This document shows, piece after piece, positions 1,828 through 31,657 of a stretch of DNA of 33,250 nucleotides; position 1 is the first letter of the stretch; every line of letters begins with the position of its first letter. The position numbers were made by a program, and so were the translations under genes. Origin of the DNA: Acidobacteriota bacterium (GTDB taxonomy: Bacteria > Acidobacteriota > Terriglobia > Bryobacterales > JACQDG01); contig JACQDG010000034.1 of the NCBI GenBank assembly GCA_016201185.1, positions 1-33,250 of the forward strand, written 5' to 3'. The notes beneath the pieces were generated by a model. That model searched no databases. It had not been told where the DNA came from and saw nothing but the letters and a program-made list of their open reading frames with translations.

Positions 1828-4257
1828 ATGGCCATTAGCGCGGGGACCCAAATCGGCCCCTATGAGATTGTTGCGCCCATCGGGGCGGGAGCCATGGGAG
1901 AGGTGTACCGGGCCAAGGACGCGCGGCTCGGGCGGGAAGTGGCTGTTAAGGTTCTGCCGCCCGCGCTCTCTTCCGATCCGGACCGGCTCCGCCGCTTCGA
2001 GCAGGAAGCCCGGGCCGCCGGGATGCTGAACCACCCCAACATTCTGGCCATTTACGATATTGGGACCTACGAAGGTTCCCCCTATCTGGTCTCGGAGCTG
2101 CTGCAAGGCGAGACCCTCCGCGACCGCCTGGGCGGCGCGGGTATAGGTCTCCGTAAGACCGTTGACTATGCCCTGCAGATCGCCCGCGGCCTGGCCGCCG
2201 CCCACGAGAAGGGCATCACCCACCGGGATCTCAAGCCGGAAAACATCTTCATAACCAAAGACGGCCGGGCGAAAATTCTCGATTTCGGCCTGGCCAAGCT
2301 GACCCGGCCGGAGGCGCTGGGCGGCGACGGCAGCAACGCTCCCACCATCGACGGTCAGACCCAGCCCGGCGCTATTCTGGGCACGGTCGGCTACATGTCG
2401 CCCGAGCAGGTACGCGGCCAACCGGTTGACCACCGCTCGGACCTCTTCACCTTCGGGGCCATCCTCTACGAGATGATCTCCGGCCGCAAGGCCTTCCGCG
2501 GGGCATCGGCGGTGGAGACGATGAACGCCATCCTGAAGGAGGAGCCGGAGGAGCTTTCGGCCATTAACCCGAACTCGCCGCCGGCCCTGGAGCGAAACAT
2601 CCGGCATTGTCTGGAGAAGAACCCGGAGGAGCGGTTCCAGTCGGCGCGCGATGTGGCGTTCGACCTGGAGGCGCTGCTGGGTGCGCTCGGTCCTACCACT
2701 ACGGTCATGCCGGTGGAGGGCGGACGGAAGACCAGTTCCGGAGTGGCGGCGGTGATTGGCGCGGCACCGGAAGTGGGCAAGCGCCGGCTCGCCACCCTGG
2801 CCCTGGCCGGCGTGGCCTTGCTCGCCCTTTACACTATCGGCGTGGGCTTCTTTGTCAGCGCCCGCAGCGGGAATTCCGGCCCGCCTTCGTTCCACTTGCT
2901 CACTTTCCGCCGCGGCACCATCCTTTCGGCCCGCTTCGCTCCCGACGGCCAGACCATCGTTTACGGCGCGCGCTGGGACGGCAGTCCGTTCGAGTTGTTC
3001 TCCACGCGCCCCGAAAGCCCCGAATCCCGCTCGCTCGGTTTTCCCGGCACGGAGATCCTGGCCATTTCACCCTCCGGCGAGATGGCTATCTCCTCCGGGC
3101 GGCATCCTGTGGGCGGCTTCGTCTACAGCGGTACGCTGGGGCGGGCTTCGCTGGCCGGCGGCGCTTCGCGCGAAGTCCTCGAGGATGTCCAGCAGGCCGA
3201 CTGGGCGCCGAACGGAAGCAGCCTGGCCGTGGTGCGGAATGTCGGCGGGCGAAACCGCATCGAGTTTCCCGTCGGCAAGATCCTCTACGAGACGGCCGGG
3301 TGGATCGGCAACCCGCGCGTCTCGCCCCAGGGTGACCTGGCTGCCTTTATCGATCATCCGGTCCAGGGCGATGACGGCGGGACTGTGTCGGTCGTTGATC
3401 TGAACGGAAAGAAGAGAATTCTTTCCGGCGGCTGGGTGAGCACCCAGGGCCTGGCTTGGTCGCCCAAGGGGGATGAGGTCTGGTTCACGGCGACCAGAGT
3501 CGGGGCGGCCCGCGCCCTCCATGCCGTCTCCCTGGCAGGCAAGGAGCGCCTGGTGGCGCGGGTGGCGGGCATCATGACCCTCCTTGACATCTCGCGCGAC
3601 GGGCGGGCCTTGATGACCATGAGCAATGAGAGGCAGGGGATTATCGCTCAGCCCCCCGAGGAGACCAAGGAACGCGACCTGTCGTGGCTCGATGCTTCCG
3701 GTATTCGCGACATTTCCCCAGACGGGCGGGTAGTGCTCTTCAGCGAAAGCGGGGAAGGCGGCGGCGCCACTTACACTATTTATATTCGTAAGACAGACGG
3801 CTCGCCCGCGGTGAAAATCGGCGAAGGGATGGTGCAGAGGCTTTCGCCCGACGGAAAGTGGGCGTTGGCGATCACCTACGGCACTTCCAACCCGCAACTG
3901 GTTCTGTTCCCGACCGGGCCGGGCGAGCCAAAACCGCTGGTGGACGGGAGCATTCGCTACCAAGCGGCGGCCTGGTTTCCCGACGGGAAGCGGGTGGCGT
4001 TCATTGGCAACGAGCAGAGCCATGGATCACGACTCTACCGGAGCCTCTATCTATACCGGCGCGGTGAATTGCCCACCAAGGCCTACCGGCTCGATCTTGC
4101 GAGCGGGAAGAAGGAGCTGTGGAAGCAGTTCATGCCGGCGGACCACGCCGGGGTGGATAATCTATCCCCCATTCTCGTGACGCCCGACGGCAAGGCTTAC
4201 GCTTACACATATAGCCGGGCCCTATCCGACCTGTACCTGGTCGAGGGAGTAAAGTAG
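1828..4257 (+). CDS. PK1: membrane Ser/Thr protein kinase with C-terminal TolB/WD40-like propeller (shortened propeller)
   Basis: [46 protein letters not shown] near 'LATLALAGVALLALYTIGVGFF'; repeated '[11 protein letters not shown]' blades. GGAGG RBS 8 nt upstream. Confidence 0.95.
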   Translation: MAISAGTQIGPYEIVAPIGAGAMGEVYRAKDARLGREVAVKVLPPALSSDPDRLRRFEQEARAAGMLNHPNILAIYDIGTYEGSPYLVSELLQGETLRDRLGGAGIGLRKTVDYALQIARGLAAAHEKGITHRDLKPENIFITKDGRAKILDFGLAKLTRPEALGGDGSNAPTIDGQTQPGAILGTVGYMSPEQVRGQPVDHRSDLFTFGAILYEMISGRKAFRGASAVETMNAILKEEPEELSAINPNSPPALERNIRHCLEKNPEERFQSARDVAFDLEALLGALGPTTTVMPVEGGRKTSSGVAAVIGAAPEVGKRRLATLALAGVALLALYTIGVGFFVSARSGNSGPPSFHLLTFRRGTILSARFAPDGQTIVYGARWDGSPFELFSTRPESPESRSLGFPGTEILAISPSGEMAISSGRHPVGGFVYSGTLGRASLAGGASREVLEDVQQADWAPNGSSLAVVRNVGGRNRIEFPVGKILYETAGWIGNPRVSPQGDLAAFIDHPVQGDDGGTVSVVDLNGKKRILSGGWVSTQGLAWSPKGDEVWFTATRVGAARALHAVSLAGKERLVARVAGIMTLLDISRDGRALMTMSNERQGIIAQPPEETKERDLSWLDASGIRDISPDGRVVLFSESGEGGGATYTIYIRKTDGSPAVKIGEGMVQRLSPDGKWALAITYGTSNPQLVLFPTGPGEPKPLVDGSIRYQAAAWFPDGKRVAFIGNEQSHGSRLYRSLYLYRRGELPTKAYRLDLASGKKELWKQFMPADHAGVDNLSPILVTPDGKAYAYTYSRALSDLYLVEGVK

Positions 4258-6873: not shown

Positions 6874-9482
6874 TGCTCGCCGCCGGAACCCAGCTCGGCC
6901 CTTACGAGGTCCTCGGGAAAATCGGCGCCGGAGCCATGGGCGAGGTCTATCGCGCCAAAGACGCTCGCCTGGCTCGGGAAGTAGCCATTAAGGTTCTTCC
7001 AGCCGCTTTCGCCGCCGACCCCGACCGGCTCCGCCGCTTCGAGCAGGAAGCCCGCGCCGCCGGCATGTTGAACCACCCCAACATCCTCGCCATCTACGAC
7101 ATCGGCACGCATGAAGGCTCCCCTTACCTGGTTTCCGAACTGCTGCAAGGCGAGACCCTGCGGGAGCGGCTGAAGGCCGGCGCGCTAGGCCTTCGTAAGA
7201 CCATCGAATACGCTCACCAGATCGCCCGGGGTCTCGCCGCCGCCCACGAGAAAGGCATCACCCACCGGGACCTCAAGCCAGAAAACATCTTCATCACCAA
7301 GGACGGCCGGGTGAAAATCCTCGATTTCGGCCTGGCCAAGCTGACCCGGCCGGAGGCGCCGAGCGGAGAGGGCAGCAGCGCCCCGACCCTGGGCGGGGAA
7401 ACCGAGCCGGGGGCGATCTTGGGCACGGTCGCTTACATGTCGCCGGAGCAGGTGCGGGGCCGGCCGGCCGATCATCGCTCGGACATCTTCACCTTCGGGG
7501 CCATTCTCTACGAGATGCTGGCGGGTAAGAGGCCCTTCGGGGGCGAATCGGCGGTGGAGACGATGAGCGCCATTCTCAGGGAGGAGCCGCCGGAGCTTTC
7601 CGCCACTAATCAAAATGTCAACCCAGCCTTAGAGCGGATCATCCGGCACTGTTTGGAGAAGAGTCCGGAGGAGCGGTTCCAGTCGTCGCGGGACATTGCT
7701 TTTGACCTGGAGATGCTGTCCGGTGCGATAGGCCCGACCACGGTGATGCGGGCCATCGAGGAGTCCGCGGCGGCCGCCCCGGTAAGCGCCGCGCCGATCG
7801 CGCCAAAGCGCCGGCTGGTGCTGGCATTCGTCGGCCTCTCTTTTCTCGCCCTGTTCGGCATCGGGATGTACCTCGTCGGCGCGCGGAGCGGCAAGACATT
7901 GCCCCCTTCTTTCCACCTGCTCACTTTCCGTCGCGGAACGATCAATTCCGCCCGCTTCGCTCCCGACGGCCAGACGATCGTCTACGGGGCAAGGTGGGAC
8001 GGCAACCCGCTCGAGCTTTTCTCCACGCGACCCGAAAGTCCCGATTCGCGATCGCTTGGACAACCCGGCACCGAGATTCTGGCCATCTCCTCTTCGGGCG
8101 AAATGGCTCTTTCGCTCAAGCGGCATTTCTCCGGGGCCTTCATGGGGAGCGGAACGCTGGCCCGGGCGTCGTTCGGCGGCGGCGCTTCCCGCGAAGTAAT
8201 GGAAGATGTTCAACTGGCTGACTGGGGGCCGGACGGCGCAGGCCTCGCGGTGGTTCGCACCGTCGGCGGTCGAAATCGCCTCGAGTTTCCCATCGGGAAA
8301 ATGCTCTATGAAACCGCCGGCTGGATCAGCCATCCGAGGGTCTCGCCGACGGGCGACCTGGTCGCCTTCATCGACCATCCGGCGATTGGAGACGACGGGG
8401 GAGCGGTCGCTGTAGTGGACTCCGGCAGCAAGGCGAAAACCTTGTCCTCCGGGTGGATCAGCGTCCAGGGTCTCGCCTGGCGCCCGAGCAGCGGCGAGAT
8501 CTGGTTTACAGCCACCAAGGTGGGCGGCGCACGCGCTCTCCATGCCGTATCGCTTGCGGGACGGGAACGCCTGTTGGTTAGGGTGGCGGGACCCCTCACC
8601 CTGCACGATATCTCGCGCGAAGGACGAGTCTTGATGACGCGCGACAACGCCCGCCAGGGAATGGTGGCTCTCCCTCCCGGCGAGACTCAGGAACGCGATT
8701 TATCCTGGCTGGACTGGTCGCTGGTCACCGGCATTACGCCCGACGGCAAGACGCTCCTCTTCTGCGAGACCGGCGAGGGCGGCGGAGCGGCCTACGGTCT
8801 ATATATTCGGAAGACCGACGGCTCTCCGGCGGTGAAGATCGGCGAGGGCTGCGGAACGGGACTATCGCCCGACGGGAAGTGGGCTTTGTCGATCACCTCC
8901 ACTAGTTCTGCGCCGCAGTTGGTTCTGTTTCCCACCGGGCCGGGCGAGCCGAAGACGCTTAAACGGGAAGCAATCAACTATCAAGGGGCGGCCTGGTTTC
9001 CCGACGGCAAGCGCTTGTTGATCGCCGGAAATGAGCAAGGCCATGCCGTGCGGCTTTACGTGCAGGACCTCGACGGGGGCAAGTTGCGCCCCATCACGCC
9101 GGAGGGGTTGACCAATCCATCCCTCCTGGTTTCGCCCGACGGCCGGTCTGTCCTCGGCCGGAGCCACGAAGGAAAATATTTCCTTTACCCGCTCGAGGGC
9201 GGGGAACCTCGTGCCGTCGGAGGTCTGGAGCCGGAGGATGTACCCCGACAGTGGAGCGCCGACGGCCGCTCCATTTATGTTCAGCGGCGCGGCGAGTTGC
9301 CCGCTAAAGTGTATCTCCTCGATCTTTCTACGGGGCGCAAAGAACTCTGGAAGCAGTTCATGCCCCCCGACCCCGCCGGGGTGGAAGGCCTGGCCCCTCT
9401 GCCGACGCCCGACGGTAAGGCGTACGCTTACAGCTATAACCGTGTTCTCTCCGAGCTTTACCTTGTGGAGGGAGTGAAATAA
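6873..9482 (+). CDS. PK3: membrane Ser/Thr protein kinase with C-terminal TolB/WD40-like propeller
   Basis: 869 aa; complete kinase motifs; ATG overlaps the PK2 stop (TAATG). Confidence 0.95.
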
Positions 9483-11900
9483 TGCTGGCGGCAGGATCTC
9501 AACTCGGTCCTTACGAGGTGCTGGGCAAGCTCGGCGCCGGCGCCATGGGCGAGGTCTACCGCGCCAAGGATTCCAGGCTATCCCGCGAAGTGGCCATCAA
9601 AGTCCTGCCGCCTGCCCTGTCTTCCGATCCCGACCGGCTGCGCCGCTTCGAGCAGGAAGCCCGCGCCGCCGGCATGCTCAACCACCCCAACATCCTCGCC
9701 ATTTACGACGTCGGCGCCCACGAAGGCTCGCCTTATCTGGTTTCCGAGCTGCTGCAAGGCGAGACGCTGCGAGACCGTCTGAAGAGCGGCGCCCCGGGTC
9801 TTCGTAAGACCATCGAGTACGGGCTTCAGATCGCCCGCGGCCTGGCGGCCTCCGGAGCAGGTCCGCGGCCAACCGGTCGATCATCGCGCTGATATCTTCG
9901 CCTTTGGCAGCATCCTCTACGAGATGATGGCCGGCCGCAAGGCGTTCGGGGGCGGATCGGCCGTGGAAACGATGAGCGCGATTTTGAAGGAGGAGCCGCC
10001 GGAAATCTCTGCCACCAATCAGAACTTCTCCCCTGCCCTGGACACTATCGTTCGGCACTGCCTGGAGAAGAGCCCGGAGGAGCGCTTCCAGTCGGCGCGG
10101 GACATCGCCTTCAACCTGGAGGTGCTGGCGGGCGCCGTGGGTCCTAGCACTACCGCCATGCCCATTGAGGGCGCTCGCAAGACGTCCTCGGGGATGTCCG
10201 TTGTAATGGCCCCCGCGCCGGCTCTCAAGAAGCGATACCTTGCGGCGGCGGCCTTGGTTGGGCTTGGCTTGCTCGCCACTGTGTTTTTCGCGGGACTGCG
10301 GCTTGGAAAAACTCCTCCCCCTTCGTTTCAACTGCTGACCTTCCGGCGCGGCACGATCCGCTCCGCGCGCTTCGCCCATGATGGCCCGACGATTGTCTAC
10401 GGCGCCTCCTGGAACGGTAACCAGGTGGAGCTTTTTTCCACACGCCCCGAAAGCCCCGATTCGCGCGCCCTGGGCTTCCCCGGCGCCGAGATCCTGGCCA
10501 TCTCCCCGTCCGGCGAAATGGCTATCTCGCTCGGGCGGCACATATTCGGACCCTTCATGAACACCGGCACCCTGGCCCGGGCAACGTTTGGCGGCGGCGC
10601 CTCGCGCGAGGTCCTGGAGGACGTGCAACAGGCCGACTGGGGGCCGGGCGGAAACACCCTGGCTGTGGTACGGAATGTCGGCGGTCGCAACCGGCTTGAA
10701 TATCCTATCGGCAAGGTGCTGTATGAAACCGCCGGGTGGATTGCCCATCCGCGCGTCTCGCCCAATGGAGACCTGGTCGCCTTCATTGACCATGCGGTCA
10801 TAGGCGACGACGGGGGAGGGGTCGCTGTCGTGGACCTCAGCGGGAAGAAGAAGACGCTTTCCGAAGGCTGGGTCACTGTCTGGGGCCTCGCCTGGTCCCG
10901 ACAGGGTCGGGACGAGATCTGGTTCACGGCAACCCGGGTTGGAGCGTCCCGCGCCCTCCATGCCGTCTCCCTTTCAGGGCAGGAGCGACTACTGCTGAGG
11001 GCGGCAGGAACTCTTACCCTCCACGATGTGGCGCACGACGGCCGTGTCCTGCTCACCCGCGACAACCAGCGGCAAGGAATAGTCGCTCTTCCACCCGGCG
11101 AAACCAAGGAGCGCGATTTATCCTGGCTTGATTGGTCCCTGCCCAGCGACATTTCGCCGGACGGCAAGACGGTCCTGTTCAGTGAAGCCGGGGAAGGCGG
11201 TGGAGCCACGTATGGCGTTTATCTCCGCAAGACTGACAGCTCGCCCGCCGTGAAAATCGGCGAGGGGTCGTCCCAGGGGCTTTCGCCGGACGGCAAGTGG
11301 GCGTTGTCGATCATCTCGACCAGCTCGGCGCCGCAACTGGTGCTGTTCCCGACCGGACCCGGCGAGCCGAAACCACTCGAGCGCCAGGGTATGAATTATC
11401 ACGGTGCGTGCTGGCTTCCCGACGGGAAACGCATCGCCTTCGCGGGCAACGAGCCGGGTCGGGTGGTGCGGATTTATGTGCAAGACCTGGCCGGGGGCAA
11501 GCCGCGCCCCATCACGCCGGAAGGGGCTACCGTCGCGCTTATACTCGTTTCCCCGGATGGCCGCTCTGTGATCGGACGCGCCGCTGACAGGAAGTACTAT
11601 CTATACCCGGTGGAAGGCGGGGAGCCCCGCGCTATTGCCGGCCTGGCTCCGGAGGATAGGCCCACGCAGTGGAGCGCCGATGGCCGCTCTCTTTACGTGC
11701 ACCGGCGCGGGGAGTTGCCGGCCAGACTCTATCGGCTGGATCTCTCGACCGGGCGCAAGGAACTCTGGAAACAGTTCATGCCCGCCGACGCGGCCGGCGT
11801 GGAAGATGTTACCCCCATTCCGACGTCCGACGGCAAGGCGTATATGTACGGTTACATGCGAGTGCTCTCTGAGCTTTATTTAGTTGAAGGGGTCAAGTAA
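9482..11900 (+). pseudogene. PK4: receptor-kinase paralogue with about 200-bp deletion and frameshift in the kinase domain
   Basis: Frame 1 (9482..9892) has the N-lobe up to 'QIARGLAA' then runs out of frame to a stop. From base 9852 a second frame continues '[25 protein letters not shown]...' to 11900. The HRD, DFG and activation-loop segment present in all paralogues is absent. Confidence 0.85.
9924..11900 (+). CDS. PK4 distal ORF: kinase C-lobe tail + TM + TolB-like propeller (possible reinitiation product)
   Basis: 658 aa open frame with intact TM and propeller; ATG at 9924 lies about 30 nt after the premature stop at 9892. Confidence 0.5.
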   Translation: MMAGRKAFGGGSAVETMSAILKEEPPEISATNQNFSPALDTIVRHCLEKSPEERFQSARDIAFNLEVLAGAVGPSTTAMPIEGARKTSSGMSVVMAPAPALKKRYLAAAALVGLGLLATVFFAGLRLGKTPPPSFQLLTFRRGTIRSARFAHDGPTIVYGASWNGNQVELFSTRPESPDSRALGFPGAEILAISPSGEMAISLGRHIFGPFMNTGTLARATFGGGASREVLEDVQQADWGPGGNTLAVVRNVGGRNRLEYPIGKVLYETAGWIAHPRVSPNGDLVAFIDHAVIGDDGGGVAVVDLSGKKKTLSEGWVTVWGLAWSRQGRDEIWFTATRVGASRALHAVSLSGQERLLLRAAGTLTLHDVAHDGRVLLTRDNQRQGIVALPPGETKERDLSWLDWSLPSDISPDGKTVLFSEAGEGGGATYGVYLRKTDSSPAVKIGEGSSQGLSPDGKWALSIISTSSAPQLVLFPTGPGEPKPLERQGMNYHGACWLPDGKRIAFAGNEPGRVVRIYVQDLAGGKPRPITPEGATVALILVSPDGRSVIGRAADRKYYLYPVEGGEPRAIAGLAPEDRPTQWSADGRSLYVHRRGELPARLYRLDLSTGRKELWKQFMPADAAGVEDVTPIPTSDGKAYMYGYMRVLSELYLVEGVK

Positions 11901-29583: not shown

Positions 29584-30033
29584 CTAACCAAGAACAGCTG
29601 AAACGGGAGGAGCGCGGCCGACCGACGGCGTCAGATACCGCTCGTGGCTCAGGCGAATGGCGGAGCGAAATAGAGAGAAGAAACAAAGGGTAAGGCAGAG
29701 AGAATAGAAAATCGCAACCTGGAAGCTGCCCAGAGCTTCCAGCAGCCGCGCCAGGTGCAACGTGGGCTTCTCATCCGATTTGCCGGGCAGTGGTGTGCCG
29801 GCGCCGCCCCCGCTTTCCGTCGGAAACGAAAGGGTCCGAGACCAGGCCATATCGTCGCTGGCGGAAACACAGGGGAACAGAACAAACGCCGCAACCAGGA
29901 CACACGCCCCGCGGCGCAGCCTCACTCTGGCGCTTCCGGAGATCCTGGATCGAAACTCCAGCAAGCCGCAAGCGCCCAGAGCGGCGACCGCAATGAAAGC
30001 CCAGAGAAAATTGAGTGCCGCAGTGAAACTCAC
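29584..30033 (-). CDS. Small membrane protein of unknown function heading the RND operon
   Basis: 149 aa from a GTG start, two hydrophobic segments (FLWAFIAVAALGACGLL; GSFQVAIFYSLCLTLCFFSLF) and a C-terminal His/Arg-containing tail. Ends 33 bp before czcC on the same strand. Confidence 0.55.
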   Translation of the reverse strand: MSFTAALNFLWAFIAVAALGACGLLEFRSRISGSARVRLRRGACVLVAAFVLFPCVSASDDMAWSRTLSFPTESGGGAGTPLPGKSDEKPTLHLARLLEALGSFQVAIFYSLCLTLCFFSLFRSAIRLSHERYLTPSVGRAPPVSAVLG

Positions 30034-30115
30034 AATACTGTCAGAATACCAACGACCTCAGCCGCCCGTCAACACTCACGGGTGCGCGACATATTTGTGG
30101 ATGGCTGGGAACCCG

Positions 30116-30194
30116 GATTCAGAGCCGTGCGCGTGAGCAAGCGGTTTTCTGAAGGACACGATGAACCGCTCCTTGACAGTCGCGGCTCTGAACC
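30116..30194. repeat. REPIN-like inverted pair of about 31-nt repeat arms
   Basis: Left arm top strand GATTCAGAGCCGTGCGCGTGAGCAAGCGGTT; right arm reverse complement GGTTCAGAGCCGCGACTGTCAAGGAGCGGTT. Same length, with identical TTCAGAGCCG and AGCGGTT ends. Confidence 0.65.
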
Positions 30195-30227
30195 GAGCGT
30201 AGCGGTACGTTCGGACGCCGCATTGGC

Positions 30228-30629
30228 TTGGCGCTAAGCGACGAGCTGGGGTGGACCGCCCAGGGCTTGCCGACGCTGGAGAGAAAAAATAAGCAGGCCG
30301 ACCTGGAGGCGCTGGCCGCCCTGATTCGCCAGCACGGCGTGCGGCTGGTGATCGCCGGCAACCCCGTCCGGCTCAGCGGCGCTGAAAGCGCCGGGTCGCG
30401 CGCAGCCGCCGCTTTTGCCGAGCAGTTGCGCCGGCGCACGGGCCTCGAGGTCCGGCTGTGGGATGAGCGGCTGACCACGCGGGAGGCCTCCCGGGTGCTG
30501 CGCTCGAGCGGCATCAGCATTGCTAAGCGGGCCCGCGCCGTTGACCGCCTCGCCGCGGTATTATTGCTCGAAAGCTATCTCGACCGGGAAAGGGCCGCGC
30601 AGGGCCTCCTGGCCGATCAGCAACCGTGA
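30228..30629 (+). CDS. ruvX: RuvX/YqgF-like Holliday junction resolvase, N-terminus missing or degraded
   Basis: (M)ALSDELGWTAQGLPTLERKN...VIAGNPVRLSGAESAGSRAAAAFAEQLRRRTGLEVRLWDERLTTREASRVL...DRLAAVLLLESYL. The N-terminal MxxLALDxGxxRIG segment is absent; an in-frame TGA occurs at 30189-30191. Confidence 0.8.
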   Translation: MALSDELGWTAQGLPTLERKNKQADLEALAALIRQHGVRLVIAGNPVRLSGAESAGSRAAAAFAEQLRRRTGLEVRLWDERLTTREASRVLRSSGISIAKRARAVDRLAAVLLLESYLDRERAAQGLLADQQP

Positions 30630-31657
30630 CATTTCAACGAACTATCTGGATCCTGTTTCTCCTCGCCGCGGCGTTGTCCCTTTATGTCGCCCTCTCGATC
30701 GTCCGCCCCTATCGCGGCTTTTCCCCAGAGGCCTTCGTGAACCTCCGGCGAGGCGCCGGCTCGTTCGAAATCGCCGCTCAACTGGAGAACGCCGGCGTGC
30801 TTCGGTCCCAGTGGCCTTTCCTGCTGCTTCGCCTGCTGCGTCCCGGTTCGGTGCTGAAAGCCGGAGAGTACCGCTTCAACCGGCCCCTTTCCCCCCTCGA
30901 CGTCTACCGCAAGATCGCGCGCGGCGAGGTCTTCTATTACACCCTCACCGTCCCGGAAGGCTACAGCATGTGGGAGATCGCCGATGCGGTCGCGCGGACG
31001 GGTGTCATCTCGCGCGAAGCGTTCCTGCTCGAGGCCCGGAGGGGCGAGCGCGTGGCCGACCTGGCGCCCGGCGCGAAGACCCTGGAAGGATTCCTGTTCC
31101 CCGACACCTACCGCCTCACCCGGCGCACCACGGCCGAAGAGTTGGTGGGCCAGATGCTGAAGCGCTTCCGCGAGGTAGCGAGGCAACTGCCGCAAGTCCC
31201 CCAGCTGCTTGAGGCCGTAGTGCTGGCCTCGCTCGTCGAAAAGGAGACGCCGGCGGCGGCCGAGCGGCCGCTGGTGGCTTCCGTGTTCCGCAACCGCTTG
31301 CGCGTGGGGATGCCGCTCCAAAGCGATCCCACCGTGATTTACGCGCTGGAGCTGGCCGGGCGCTACCGGGGCGAGATTTTCAAGGACGACCTGGCGATCC
31401 AGAGTCCTTATAATACCTACGAACACCCCGGGCTGCCTCCCGGCCCCATCGCCAATCCCGGCCGTGCTTCGCTTCAAGCGGCCATTTCCCCGGCTGAAAC
31501 CAACTATTTCTACTTCGTCGCCGACAACAAGGGGGGGCATGTGTTTTCCGCCGACCTGGAGCGTCACAGCCGCGCGGTGGCCGGGTACCGCCGCGCCAAT
31601 GGCAAAAACGGCGCTCACCCTGCGGCCGGCGTCGACAAGAATGCCCGGCGCCGCTAA
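30626..31657 (+). CDS. mltG: Endolytic murein transglycosylase MltG
   Basis: 343 aa from GTG overlapping the ruvX stop; N-terminal TM; 'VPEGYSMWEIADAV', 'LEGFLFPDTYRL', 'LASLVEKET', 'VFRNRLRVGMPLQSDPTVIYAL', 'SPYNTYEHPGLPPGPIANPG'. Confidence 0.95.
   Translation: MTFQRTIWILFLLAAALSLYVALSIVRPYRGFSPEAFVNLRRGAGSFEIAAQLENAGVLRSQWPFLLLRLLRPGSVLKAGEYRFNRPLSPLDVYRKIARGEVFYYTLTVPEGYSMWEIADAVARTGVISREAFLLEARRGERVADLAPGAKTLEGFLFPDTYRLTRRTTAEELVGQMLKRFREVARQLPQVPQLLEAVVLASLVEKETPAAAERPLVASVFRNRLRVGMPLQSDPTVIYALELAGRYRGEIFKDDLAIQSPYNTYEHPGLPPGPIANPGRASLQAAISPAETNYFYFVADNKGGHVFSADLERHSRAVAGYRRANGKNGAHPAAGVDKNARRR

Follow-up and report, generated by a model that had tools for sequence, protein, structure and literature searches.

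Does this member of the Bryobacterales encode a RuvX protein without its catalytic N-terminus, or does the loss belong to the draft assembly in which it appears? The locus lies on a contig of 33,250 bp, which was analysed over its whole length (hereafter the window) and which is the entire contig C97 of a MAG (G000) of 3.64 Mb in 497 contigs, with a completeness of 65%. The ruvX (yqgF) body is placed at window positions 30228-30629 on the forward strand, TTG 30228 being the first start that can be annotated, with homology already from 30216. Read from 30192, the frame matched the Pfam RuvX family (PF03652) with 122 bits against a cut-off of 29.2, starting at position 11 of the 134-position profile, and the body scored 99.7 bits for TIGR00250 (cut-off 43.25). 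The initial annotation had pointed to an in-frame TGA supplied by the right arm of a repeat. Sequence and translation confirm this stop codon at 30189-30191 (+), the arms being located at 30118-30146 and 30164-30192. The accompanying observation that no ATG is available and that TTG 30228 is the best start is likewise correct, as this TTG is the earliest ATG, GTG or TTG of the frame, which is open for 133 codons from there.

The homology to RuvX sets in with the Arg codon at 30216-30218. Aligned by phmmer with solved YqgF/RuvX structures, the frame matches E. coli YqgF from residue 10, one residue past the catalytic Asp, and B. subtilis 1vhx from residue 13. The claim that the first-strand catalytic Asp (LxLDxG motif) is not encoded therefore stands: homology begins past this residue, and the codons upstream of it, including the catalytic position itself, consist of mobile element sequence. 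The Asp was present at this position in all 109 relatives examined. Like other RuvX/YqgF proteins (PF03652, TIGR00250; putative pre-16S rRNA nuclease or Holliday junction resolvase-like), the contig copy comprises the body from past the catalytic Asp to the C-terminus with the two other catalytic acids, namely the Glu of DER (DERLTT) and the Asp of the last helix (VDRLAA), and it shares the ruvX-mltG gene order. Unlike them, it has no start codon, no leader and no Asp-bearing first strand. On contig C97, the loss of the Asp-bearing N-terminus is real as sequence.

A protein made from TTG 30228 would be without the first strand and is predicted to have no nuclease activity. In a report on Deinococcus YqgF, exchange of a putative key catalytic residue (D22A) impaired activity on total RNA and abolished it on poly(A); judging by its position, D22 is presumably the first-strand Asp. 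One could nevertheless posit that the short gene is real and used, starting at TTG 30228 or ATT 30222 and serving a non-catalytic role, for example in binding, with neither first strand nor catalytic Asp. The 133-codon open frame and the retention of every other conserved residue are consistent with this reading, but inspection of the sequence before TTG 30228 revealed no purine-rich ribosome site, the missing strand belongs to the RNase H core, and none of the 109 relatives has given up the Asp. We consider such a use of the short gene very unlikely.

The remainder of the gene is well conserved. In comparison with the nearest relative, G001 of the same family, 132 codons gave a dN of 0.20, a dS of 1.22 and a dN/dS of about 0.17 (NG86, only approximate at such divergence), and the differences fell mostly on third codon positions (24/21/71 for first, second and third positions). 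All 24 conserved RuvX residues, defined as those found in at least 90% of the relatives, were kept, and the RuvX body is without sign of decay. That ruvX is a long-standing pseudogene in decay is extremely improbable: the missing start codon and leader would fit, but the low dN/dS and the absence of change at any of the 24 strongly conserved positions speak against it. Within the order, ruvX was found once per genome in 41 of 41 genomes searched. The suggestion that the organism uses another copy found no support, as a search of the 65%-complete assembly returned no second ruvX. Neither a peptide search with E-values up to 10 nor a degenerate DNA pattern yielded a usable N-terminal fragment of ruvX elsewhere in this incomplete assembly.

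The repeat had been described as a local inverted repeat. It proved instead to be the central part of a transposable element with dispersed copies, and the hairpin arms correspond to the internal palindrome of this element. What had been called a repeat arm is transposon and not ruvX leader. The element, a 3'-truncated MITE of 139 bp (about 191 bp if complete), spans 30080-30218 (+) and is recognizable by its left terminal inverted repeat (TIR) and by a core common to copies on contigs C448 and C52 of the same genome. The left TIR, GGGTGCGCGACATA (30080-30093, +), is found in exact reverse complement at the right end of the copies on C448, C52 and C316. Adjoining it at 30071-30079 (+) is AACACTCAC, the presumed left 9-bp target-site duplication, in line with duplications of this length in the relative G013. 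No right copy of AACACTCAC was seen, and no other copy of the element in G000 is followed by this 9-mer; a comparison of AACACTCAC with the right flanks of the other copies in this genome likewise gave no fit.

The last 89 bp of the element (30130-30218, +) form an exact dispersed repeat, identical to G000:C448:963-875 (blastn, 100% over 89 bp), and the last 47 bp of this repeat recur at the very end of contig C52 (blastn, 100% over 47 bp). Beyond the point where the window copy breaks off, the C448 and C52 copies continue for 52 bp, with one difference between them, to TATGTCGCGCACCC. The window copy is thus without the right 52 bp and the right terminal repeat that both of these copies possess. 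Dispersed copies are present on C448, C52 and C316, and the one on C448 has a target-site duplication of 9 bp. Since CTGAGTCGG is present on both flanks of the C448 element, C448 represents a genuine locus. The left end of this copy (G000:C448:875-975) is degenerate and without the usual terminal repeat, despite its two-sided target duplication. A miniature element of 62 bp, consisting of little beyond the two terminal repeats of this MITE family, was also observed at G000:C441:19828-19889.

Complete elements with these ends, 155-268 bp long, occur in relatives, and the G013 copies are bordered by the 9-bp target duplications mentioned above. In a further genome, G059, three near-identical insertion sequences of 1830 bp (L187, L188 and L189) have ends that match the MITE. 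They encode a transposase of 468 aa that belongs to the ISKra4 family (NF033572, 306 bits against a cut-off of 205), and this insertion sequence is a likely source of transposase for such MITEs. The window MITE is non-autonomous and has its terminal repeats in common with an ISKra4-family insertion sequence. It resembles ISKra4-related MITEs in its terminal repeat and differs from them in lacking the right 52 bp, the right terminal repeat and the right target duplication.

The junction between MITE and ruvX lies at 30218/30219: identity with C448 and C52 stops at 30218, where the MITE breaks off with its last 52 bp missing, and ruvX sequence follows immediately. From 30219 onward the sequence corresponds to ruvX from about codon 17-18, as numbered on the G001 start. 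Up to seven bases (CGGACGC) may be common to both sides, a possible microhomology of 3-7 bp; since the ruvX sequence before the junction is lost, only the Arg codon is certain as common junction sequence.

According to our analysis, this junction was probably made by a draft-assembly mis-join or a collapsed gap at the multi-copy element. The assembler would have entered the exact 89-bp repeat from the side of the czc cluster and left it into a ruvX fragment through a few common bases, and the join would have omitted the remaining MITE sequence, any intervening DNA and the start of ruvX. We favour an artefact because the break falls exactly at the end of the exact repeat, beyond which C448 and C52 agree for 52 more bases, save the one difference, to the TIR. 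Two of the three other copies in G000 (C52 and C316) are situated at contig ends, as are copies in G001 and G056, and the genome is a fragmentary, incomplete draft, all of which further argues for an artefact. So do the undamaged body of a gene that is single-copy in the 41 genomes, the universal Asp among the relatives, and the czc cluster, which was found beside ruvX in none of 25 relatives. In a published test on one species, IS/MITE repeats were the main cause of breaks in short-read assemblies and were located at two thirds of the gaps (PMC5771137). The present locus resembles those Porphyromonas gingivalis short-read drafts in having a multi-copy short element at the junction, with other copies at contig ends, and differs in that the suspected mis-join lies inside a gene of a MAG (PMC5771137).

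Most likely, therefore, the start of ruvX is missing through a wrong join in the assembly or, failing that, through a deletion of very recent date, and new biology is less likely than either; given a wrong join, the organism would most likely possess an ordinary full-length ruvX, absent from the draft. The initial annotation had considered a probably essential gene to be broken. The loss of the N-terminus holds as sequence, but brokenness is not established, since the body is undecayed, the MAG is fragmentary, and the junction falls exactly where an exact dispersed repeat stops, other copies of which terminate contigs. Against a mis-join, no other contig was found with the N-terminus of ruvX, although G000 lacks a third of the genome, and two other deletions of about 200 bp on the contig could be real deletions in this lineage. 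Moreover, 3-7 bp is less than a plain de Bruijn join needs (k of at least 21), so that either the reads carry the junction or it was made during scaffolding or gap closing.

Should the junction be real, the insertion of a MITE upstream of ruvX would have been followed by illegitimate recombination, and the resulting deletion, extending from a point in the MITE 52 bp short of its right end to a point within ruvX, would have removed the right end of the MITE, the leader and the start of ruvX. The gene would then be recently broken, and the cells might use a copy outside the assembled 65%, tolerate the loss, or represent a minority variant. We regard this course of events as possible, yet doubtful. 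Deletions adjoining mobile elements are common, the junction is clean sequence with its possible microhomology, and there are private deletions of 213 bp and 203 bp in two kinase paralogues of the contig. However, transposase-made deletion ends normally lie at the TIR, whereas the break is inside the MITE; the undecayed body means that the deletion would have to be very recent; and the affected gene is the only ruvX of the assembled genome and present in all 41 relatives. Helicobacter pylori and Acinetobacter baylyi are reported to survive the deletion of yqgF with slow growth, whereas the gene is described as essential for E. coli, Mycobacterium tuberculosis, Salmonella and Deinococcus (PMC9601230).

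The kinase paralogues are part of a tandem array at 1828-22369 (+), in which eight genes, named from sequence, encode serine/threonine kinases with WD40/PD40-like propeller domains; seven of the eight are close paralogues. The first paralogue (1828-4257, +) has its private deletion of 213 bp at about 4037, in frame and in the C-terminal propeller region. The private 203-bp deletion in the kinase/beta-propeller paralogue at 9482-11900 (+) is out of frame. Located at about 9849, it removes the HRDLKPEN catalytic loop and DFG and leaves the open reading frames 9482-9892 and 9924-11900. Both may be genuine losses in genes that are redundant, or they may represent further collapsed gaps.

The genes around ruvX were inspected as well. 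Downstream, mltG/yceG (30626-31657, +; Pfam YceG, 274 bits) is the conserved neighbour, and the order ruvX-mltG was found in 25 of 25 relatives compared. On the other side, the MITE sits at 30080 upstream of the czc cluster, and its left flank is formed by a small gene (29584-30033, reverse strand) upstream of czcC on the same strand, with weak homologues near czcC-like genes (L180, L181). A promoter-like site of the leftward czc cluster (30043-30072, reverse strand; 9 of 12 matches in a consensus scan, function putative) lies just outside the left end of the MITE. An open frame running in from upstream (29755-30237, +) was dismissed, because it lies in a different frame, ends at 30237 and runs antisense to the small gene. 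In G001, the only other genome of the same family, ruvX is preceded by a galK-like gene and two small genes (named from sequence); the galK-like gene had no match in G000, and a search for a czcC homologue in G001 gave weak matches only. Gene order upstream of ruvX is not conserved between families. Given this poor upstream conservation, the czc neighbour alone proves nothing, and the neighbours cannot decide whether the contig is chimeric.

MITEs with the ends of an ISKra4-family insertion sequence in genomes of the Bryobacterales type are a small and ordinary addition to what is known. The locus is also a caution, in that a core gene of a MAG seems to have lost its catalytic end at precisely the base where a multi-copy mobile element breaks off. 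For gene-loss calls of this kind, the reads should be consulted before any biological conclusion is drawn. A real junction would constitute a natural test of the need of RuvX for its first catalytic Asp. That it is both real and fixed, that this is the sole ruvX, and that the cell lives with a RuvX lacking the first strand and catalytic Asp, initiated at a non-ATG codon beside a transposon remnant, is highly improbable. Were this so, the essential role of RuvX in this organism would not need the catalytic Asp.
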